Part shown: piece by piece, positions 1 to 1,289 of the stretch
How positions within the stretch are numbered: position 1 is the stretch's first letter
Layout of the letters: each line of letters opens with the position of its first letter
Source: a bacterium
GTDB taxonomy: Bacteria; CSSED10-310; JAJRTK01
Assembly (NCBI GenBank): GCA_024278345.1
Contig: JAJRTK010000264.1
Location: 1 to 19,832 of the forward strand
DNA: 19,832 nt
Direction of reading: 5' to 3'
Translations under genes and position numbers: made by a program
Notes under the pieces: model-generated
Told to the model about the DNA's origin: nothing
Databases searched by the model: none
Seen by the model: the letters and a program-made list of their open reading frames with translations, nothing else

Positions 1-527
1 CAAGGCCTTGGGAGAAGCCCACGGCCTACCCGAGAACCGGAAAACCCTGAAAAAGGTGAGAAAACAGATCGAAGGCTTGGCTTCCTTGGTGGATCTTTGG
101 TGGGACAGAGTTCGCCTCTATGTTGGAGCGTTGCCCTTGCCTCCGCACCAGAAAAATTGGCTCGAAGAGGTTCTGCTTCTCTTTCCAGAAACATCCTACG
201 ACTCAGGAGATTTCGCAAGAAGAAATCTCCCGCTGGCAAATCTGGGCAATGGACTATGTCAAGGGCTTCCAGCGTGCTTCCTCGGCTCTTGAAGGGCGCA
301 ATGGCTATCTCTCCCAGATGCATCACAACCACTGTGGATTACCCAAACGACGGTACAAGGCCTGGAGGGTGATTCATAACTTTGACTGTCGCGCATCCGA
401 TGGCACAACCCCAGCCTCTCGCTTTTTCCAACACTCGTTTCCTGACTTTTTTGAGACTTTGCTCTCGAAAATCGACCAGCTACCATTGCCTCGCGGCAGG
501 AGGCAACCTACCAGGCTTCTTGCTTGA
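1..527 (+). pseudogene. DUF6399-type transposase remnant, frameshifted, 5' end off the window
   Basis: This is the C-terminal part of a transposase-like protein. The first part reads in frame 2 (VDLWWDRVRLYV region, about 2-210). The second reads in frame 3 and ends at the stop at 525-527. The switch falls roughly between 140 and 215. The frame-3 part carries the conserved-looking block SSALEGRNGYLSQMHHNH, then VIHNFDC and DGTTPASRFF, which I recognise from memory as the C-terminal signature of DUF6399-domain transposase-like proteins. No frame is open across the whole region, so one gene has been broken by an indel. Terminal inverted repeats are not visible because the left end lies outside the window. 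It stands at the start of a stretch of broken genes. The family name is from recall, not a search. Confidence 0.7.
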
Positions 528-605
528 TACCATCGGCTTTGTCCCGCCTTAAGTGAATACCCCTGACTGATTATTAGTGTTTTGACTCAAGTAAAAGAGA
601 CAATC

Positions 606-755
606 ATGGCGACGTGCAAAGGGTGTCACGGGAATGGAAAATGTTCGGCATGCAATGGGAAGGGGCGAGTTGCCCGAGGCTTTGGAGGTAGCCAATGTAA
701 GAAATGCAACGGTTCAGGGAATTGCACAGTCTGCGATGGGAAGGGCAGACGGTAG
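606..755 (+). CDS. 49-residue CxxCxGxG zinc-knuckle microprotein
   Basis: A short, complete gene from ATG 606 to TAG 753-755. The protein has eight cysteines in four CxxC units: C4/C7, C13/C16, C31/C34 and C40/C43. Most are followed by the glycine pattern of the DnaJ central domain (CKGCHGNG, CSACNGKG, CKKCNGSG, CTVCDGKG). In DnaJ four CxxCxGxG units bind two zinc ions, so this is almost a free-standing DnaJ cysteine-rich domain, here as two tight pairs joined by a glycine/arginine linker (residues 19-30). No J domain or substrate-binding domain is encoded nearby. Upstream AAAGAGA is only a modest ribosome site. It sits between a dead transposase and an Rhs fragment. Zinc binding is inferred from the motif; its partner or function is unknown. 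The regular motif makes a chance ORF unlikely. Confidence 0.75.
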   Translation: MATCKGCHGNGKCSACNGKGRVARGFGGSQCKKCNGSGNCTVCDGKGRR

Positions 756-887: not shown

Positions 888-1289
888 GTGTTTTCCGGGG
901 CTGAGACGTGGGTCGAAACGAAGGCAGGATCACTTCTTAGATCGCGAGGAACGTGGAAGTATACCACTCCACCTCTGACGGATGGGACTTGGGAGTGTGC
1001 CTACACCCCTGGCAGCGCTCTCAAGAGCAAGACGAACCTGGCGACCGGGGCAACGACGAGCTACAGCTACGATCATTTCGGGAACCTGCGGAAGGTGGTG
1101 CTCCCCAACGGCCGGGTAATCGAGTACGTCATCGACGGTCAGAACCGGCGGATCGGGAAAAAGATCGACGGGGTGCTGGTGCAGGCCTGGCTCTACGGAG
1201 GCCAGCGAGGGATCGCCGCCGAGCTGGACGGAACCGGGCAGGTGGTGAGCCGGTTCGTGTCAGGAGTTCAAGGTAGACGCGGAAAATAA
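888..1289 (+). pseudogene. Rhs/YD-repeat protein fragment
   Basis: The reading frame contains a stretch typical of the C-terminal core of Rhs/YD-repeat proteins: TTSYSYDHFGNLRKV, then VIEYVIDGQNRRIGKK, then a WLY...AELDGTGQVVSRFV segment (about residues 55-125). Intact Rhs proteins run to well over a thousand residues. They continue after this point with further repeats, the core-closing motif and a variable toxin tip. Here the match stops abruptly near 1260 and the frame closes after about ten unrelated residues. Residues 1-40 also do not look like Rhs sequence. I read it as a remnant left by deletion or recombination rather than a working gene. No toxin or immunity gene is visible beside it. 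Confidence 0.7.

Follow-up and report, generated by a model that had tools for sequence, protein, structure and literature searches.

The cysteine-rich domain of DnaJ (PF00684; structure 1exk) carries four CxxCxGxG units, separated in the E. coli protein by spacers of 9, 14 and 6 residues, and DnaJ also has a J domain and C-terminal domains. In the structures of both DnaJ and BSD2, the first unit pairs with the fourth and the second with the third. BSD2 and ZnJ2 (PF25436; 6ekb, 6ekc) are small stand-alone chloroplast chaperones with four such units. BSD2 forms a hairpin with two zincs bound by four cysteines each, stabilises RbcL8 and is said to occur only in plants and algae (PMC5859369), while ZnJ2, which lacks a J domain, binds zinc and keeps proteins from aggregating (PMC5818400). 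Motifs of the DnaJ type also occur in a small zinc protein of bacteria, anti-TRAP (RtpA, NF058604/PF15777; 3lcz, 2bx9), which has 53 residues, needs zinc for its assembly and inactivates TRAP by binding to it (PMC2896485); it has two units and a C-terminal helical segment. Partial DnaJ zinc motifs, two in each case, are found inside the HMO-2011-type DNA polymerase (PMC9038755) and C-terminally in a protein of the Bacillus phage Riggi (PMC3853051).

We analysed a stretch of 19,832 nucleotides (the window), which is an entire contig (C188) of a 6.06 Mb bacterial genome in 550 contigs. It contains a complete 49-codon ORF with stops on both sides, whose product MATCKGCHGNGKCSACNGKGRVARGFGGSQCKKCNGSGNCTVCDGKGRR consists of four CxxCxGxG units and almost nothing besides. 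The sequence-only reading had described exactly such an ORF, four CxxC units with DnaJ-type glycine spacing, and the sequence bears this out. Its label "zinc knuckle" is a misnomer, however, since that term denotes the CCHC motif: all eight ligand candidates are cysteines in CxxC pairs, CX2CX4HX4C is absent, and the motif is of the DnaJ cysteine-rich type. In contrast to DnaJ, the protein has neither a J domain nor C-terminal substrate domains, and its spacers of 1, 10 and 1 residues group the units into two tight pairs. Unlike the polymerase and the Riggi protein, it has four motifs and is free-standing. The coordinates are collected in Table 1.

Table 1. Positions of features in the window and of selected genes in related loci.
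Feature	Sequence	Position	Strand	Remark
Right part of multi-copy insertion sequence, DUF6399 transposase	window	1..566	+	frame-broken; Pfam, other copies
Weak purine-rich ribosome-binding-like stretch AAAAGAGACAATC	window	593..605	+	before ATG
Twin-pair CxxCxGxG microprotein ORF	window	606..755	+	complete, 49 codons, ATG 606, TAG 753-755
First CxxCxGxG-x-CxxCxGxG pair, CKGCHGNG K CSACNGKG	window	615..664	+	DNA pattern match
Ten-residue basic loop between the pairs, RVARGFGGSQ	window	666..695	+	
Second CxxCxGxG-x-CxxCxGxG pair, CKKCNGSG N CTVCDGKG	window	696..745	+	DNA pattern match
Rhs/YD-repeat gene fragment	window	888..1289	+	133 aa, E 4.5e-9, neighbour only
"Tat pathway signal protein" gene	L012	4354-4989		Streptomyces plasmid
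"Tat pathway signal protein" gene	L014	2368-2973		Streptomyces plasmid
"Tat pathway signal protein" gene	L203	858-1442		Streptomyces plasmid
"Tat pathway signal protein" gene	L204, L205	862-1446		Streptomyces plasmids
Larger ORF ending in the twin-pair module	L055	233-1630		contig C184 of the same genome
ORF overlapping the microgene start	L063	23-535		viral contig

The 50-base pattern of one pair matches the window at both pairs and matches none of 200 dinucleotide shuffles; together with the existence of homologues this rules out a chance or out-of-frame artefact. An internal piece of a broken DnaJ gene was rejected as well, because the units are spaced differently and relatives occur as free-standing ORFs; the DnaJ genes of this genome are located elsewhere, on contig C202. 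The sequence-only reading had argued for a separate gene, to be given up if eight-cysteine homologues were missing or occurred only inside full DnaJ genes. This search was run, and it returned short, free-standing eight-cysteine ORFs in several bacterial genomes, on Streptomyces plasmids and on viral contigs. From its sequence and theirs, we judge that the ORF is a genuine gene and a member of a separate stand-alone family, a small one to which no function is assigned and whose twin pairs make it a pared-down version of the DnaJ/BSD2 cysteine-rich domain. The window protein has the features of the free-standing twin-pair class, that is a short ORF, two tight pairs, one-residue spacers and a variable loop, the latter measuring 6–18 residues among relatives and 10 here.

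Compared with known families, the protein reaches no cut-off in Pfam, NCBIfam or PHROG. Its best sequence matches, both under cut-off, are DUF5351 (PF17302, 23.7 bits, cut-off 27) and DUF7895 (PF25433, 23.6, cut-off 27), two families for which, to our knowledge, no function is known; a literature search on DUF5351 found nothing. DnaJ_CXXCXGXG (PF00684) scores 16.1 bits (cut-off 32.7), and the matches of the window protein up to E 1 do not include BSD2 (PF25436, cut-off 27). Two relatives with three-residue spacers, L049 and L050, form a bridge to the known families: L050 passes both DUF5351 (39.7, cut-off 27) and BSD2_CRD (33.3, cut-off 27), and L049 reaches 31.2 with DnaJ_CXXCXGXG against a cut-off of 32.7. 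When a profile of 18 sequences (A3) was compared with solved structures, it matched the DnaJ cysteine-rich domain 1exk (E 6.1e-6) and anti-TRAP 3lcz (E 1.1e-4). An early structure model from three sequences was poor (pLDDT 51) and was discarded. The AlphaFold model from the 18-sequence alignment reached pLDDT 86 and pTM 0.60, with three of the five models failing. Foldseek ranked 1exk first for this model (E 1e-3) and BSD2 6ekb second (E 4.9e-3). VIA Z scores were at most 3.2; for 6ekb, with which the UvrA zinc region ties, Z was 3.0 at an rmsd of 3.9 over 43 aligned residues, the model being metal-free. The modelled structure is thus consistent with a DnaJ/BSD2-type fold, an assignment that is weak when taken alone. 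The bridging relatives and the fold matches would fit a stand-alone zinc chaperone-like domain, one of the options raised in the sequence-only reading.

The reading that we favour, tentatively and with somewhat less than even confidence, is that the window protein may be a two-zinc hairpin of the DnaJ type that acts as an adaptor or holding chaperone and clamps one particular protein partner, in the manner of BSD2 and anti-TRAP. One zinc site would be formed by units 1 and 4 and the other by units 2 and 3. The two zincs would make the hairpin rigid, with the specificity carried by the loop and the solvent-exposed residues, so that it could clamp one partner or an exposed peptide in the way BSD2 holds RbcL and anti-TRAP holds TRAP. 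Having no J domain, the protein would not recruit DnaK. A rival account, in which it would be an anti-TRAP-like antagonist that caps and inactivates one regulatory protein, appears distinctly unlikely. The profile match noted above, which is to the B. licheniformis protein, the similar size (53 against 49 residues) and the fact that anti-TRAP is a protein binder with zinc-dependent assembly (PMC2896485) speak for it. However, no helix is predicted for the window protein, which carries four units where anti-TRAP has two plus its helical C-terminus, and the RtpA model (NF058604) scores only 17.2 bits against a cut-off of 65.

Free-standing homologues with eight cysteines were found in at least six bacterial genomes besides this one, with lengths of 58 (G036), 66 (G148), 56 (G312), 54 (G423), 63 (G617) and 69 (G077) residues, and clear or strong Shine-Dalgarno sites precede several of the free-standing relatives. 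Profile scans, in which the best 17–18 candidates per genome were scored, gave relatives in at least 13 of 386 and at least 4 of 396 genomes. The DNA pattern matched 15 of 386 genomes, some matches being of low complexity, and the reversed-pattern control matched 4. The relatives of G312 and G423, which are the bridging L049 and L050, share as neighbours YidD, a DUF4177-like gene and an ankyrin-repeat gene, the last named by reading its sequence. The same module further forms the C-terminal end of some larger proteins, namely a 624-residue Eggerthellaceae ORF, a Planctomycetota ORF and one ORF on C184 of the present genome. The latter has about 465–514 codons, is rich in Pro, Ser and Arg, of low complexity, and ends in the twin-pair module ATCHGCAGQGICPLCFGTG...CHGCQGTAMCSVCGGDG. 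Contig C313 of G106 (L021/L028) carries a lipoprotein-like ORF of 261 codons with about ten CxxCxGxG units, adjoined by a 114-codon ORF that is likewise an expanded array.

Seven Streptomyces plasmid loci (L011–L014 and L203–L205) carry free-standing eight-cysteine homologues of 41–43 codons. Four were obtained by tblastn and three more by a DNA search with one of these four, in which the other records matched at the DNA level within the ORF only. The PLSDB gene table, which is incomplete, lists no gene at the microgene in any of the seven. Between distinct plasmid genes the pairwise dN/dS is about 0.05–0.25, so that the check for synonymous-biased substitution proposed in the sequence-only reading had a positive outcome and the coding sequences support selection on the Streptomyces family members. 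Within the window gene itself, one half is identical to the other at 12 of 17 first and 14 of 17 second codon positions, but the third positions are shared in only 5 of 16 cases. If the halves arose by duplication, this codon-position bias would indirectly support selection inside the gene. Compared with L050, the differences at the three codon positions number 14, 10 and 35, and the bias recurs against distant relatives, where dS is saturated and the comparison therefore speaks for past constraint and not for current selection.

In five of the seven plasmid loci (L012, L014, L203, L204 and L205) a gene annotated as "Tat pathway signal protein" lies directly upstream of the microgene on the same strand. 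Its product is small and secreted-looking, with a conserved NNCLTK motif, and the L203 copy matches nothing in Pfam. This recurrent neighbourhood suggests a specific partner, and the Tat-signal protein is a possible candidate for it. It also bears on the idea that the eight thiolates serve as a zinc or redox buffer, which would store zinc or protect from thiol stress with no specific partner. The composition of the window protein, little besides cysteine, glycine and charged residues, and the free variation of surface residues among relatives would suit a buffer. Yet the glycines and the exact CxxCxGxG spacing are kept, beyond what metal storage needs, and a conserved gene for a secreted-looking protein adjoins in most of the Streptomyces loci, which leaves us to regard the buffer as very unlikely and the partner-clamping hairpin as the better account.

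A DNA pattern scan of viral contigs (IMG/VR predictions, mostly phage, of which some may be host DNA) gave at least 80 loci. Among the 80 listed, about 21 are short ORFs (at most 100 codons between stops) that are not of low complexity and have three or four units; examples with eight cysteines are L135 (48 residues), L063, L095, L096, L073 and L110. A peptide-based scan of the viral contigs had found nothing, whereas the DNA pattern later matched there. A tblastn search of INPHARED phages, run with four queries, gave no match, a negative weakened by the short length as well as by the low-complexity filter of BLAST. L110 adjoins a terminase-like gene and L096 is near an integrase-like gene, both named by reading their sequences, and L101 and L114 have signal-peptide-like starts. 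In L063 the microgene start overlaps the stop of the upstream ORF, which contains further CxxC-x-G motifs; this arrangement suggests a translationally coupled pair. Seven loci (L067, L071, L081, L097, L100, L117 and L131) have near-identical ORFs of about 106–114 codons with GGC/RCGGFRC-type cysteine-glycine repeats after NIVYWDQQNQYPYYYIEDAARR, and these represent another kind of Cys-Gly repeat protein, likewise picked up by the pattern.

On the same scaffold the net charge ranges from +9 in the window protein, which is strongly basic, to -12 in L073, and several phage relatives lie between -9 and -12. Such a wide range fits partner-specific surfaces. A basic protein is also compatible with nucleic-acid binding, and the gene could then encode a small regulatory zinc-finger protein, which would use its basic surface and the zinc hairpin to bind RNA or DNA and is possibly spread by plasmids and phages. 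Along with the charge, the carriage on plasmids and viral contigs would suit such a regulator, the weak fold matches include the UvrA zinc region and the phage antiterminator Q-lambda, and three relatives match the PHROG antitermination Q-like family weakly (E 0.02–0.05). But these PHROG matches are at noise level, there are no matches to DNA-binding families, and the acidic phage relatives on the same scaffold make a nucleic-acid role unlikely for the family as a whole. We consider this regulator unlikely, and membership in a known phage family was rejected since none of the PHROG matches of the window protein is better than E 0.39.

Finally, we looked at the surroundings of the window gene. 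The transposase piece upstream matches DUF6399 at model positions 33–145 of 146 (Pfam E 7.6e-47); its N-terminal part apparently lies in another frame, and the piece is cut by the contig start. Copies of the insertion sequence on C390, C507 and C393 match the window up to 563–566 and then diverge, which places its right end about 40 bp before the microgene ATG. These copies are likewise degraded or truncated. The microgene lies outside this end and is absent from the other copies, and it is therefore not cargo of the insertion sequence. After the Rhs piece, ordinary chromosomal genes follow on both strands (PEGA, YdjM, glycosyltransferase, RNA methyltransferase, TPR, 5'-nucleotidase). The sequence-only reading had placed an intact ORF between a broken transposase and a broken Rhs gene in a decayed region. 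Both neighbours are indeed fragments, but the left truncation is in part an assembly edge, because the window spans the whole contig and the decayed region is also the contig end. Its suggestion of a regulator of neighbouring mobile genes is not supported, as the other copies of the insertion sequence have no such gene and the relatives lie in unrelated neighbourhoods; around the window gene, no conserved neighbourhood was found. An Rfam scan of the window and a PADLOC search gave no match, and an RNA element and a defence gene were rejected.

The position of the insertion sequence means that the native upstream region of the microgene was cut off. One may ask whether a once-functional gene has fallen silent here, its promoter removed by the insertion and its decay yet to come. 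With the insertion end so close, a promoter scan found no sigma-70-like site near the ORF, fragments lie on either side, and no copy of the microgene was found in seven other genomes of the phylum. However, promoters of other than the sigma-70 type escape such scans, the frame is still open with each of the eight cysteines and the glycines in place, and the insertion sequence itself has had time to degenerate. We hold a silenced gene to be quite unlikely, and retain the clamping hairpin as our reading.

Beyond this locus, a wider picture is conceivable, though we regard it as doubtful: bacteria, plasmids and phages may share widespread, mostly unannotated twin-pair zinc hairpins of 40–65 residues, a family easily missed because its members are very short. 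One scaffold would be re-surfaced to clamp different partners and would serve as a reusable mini-binder, with the phage versions possibly acting on host proteins. If true, partner searches would gain a small set of microproteins that are easy to test. If the minimal two-zinc scaffold is real, the zinc domain of DnaJ would work alone in prokaryotes, as BSD2 does in chloroplasts.
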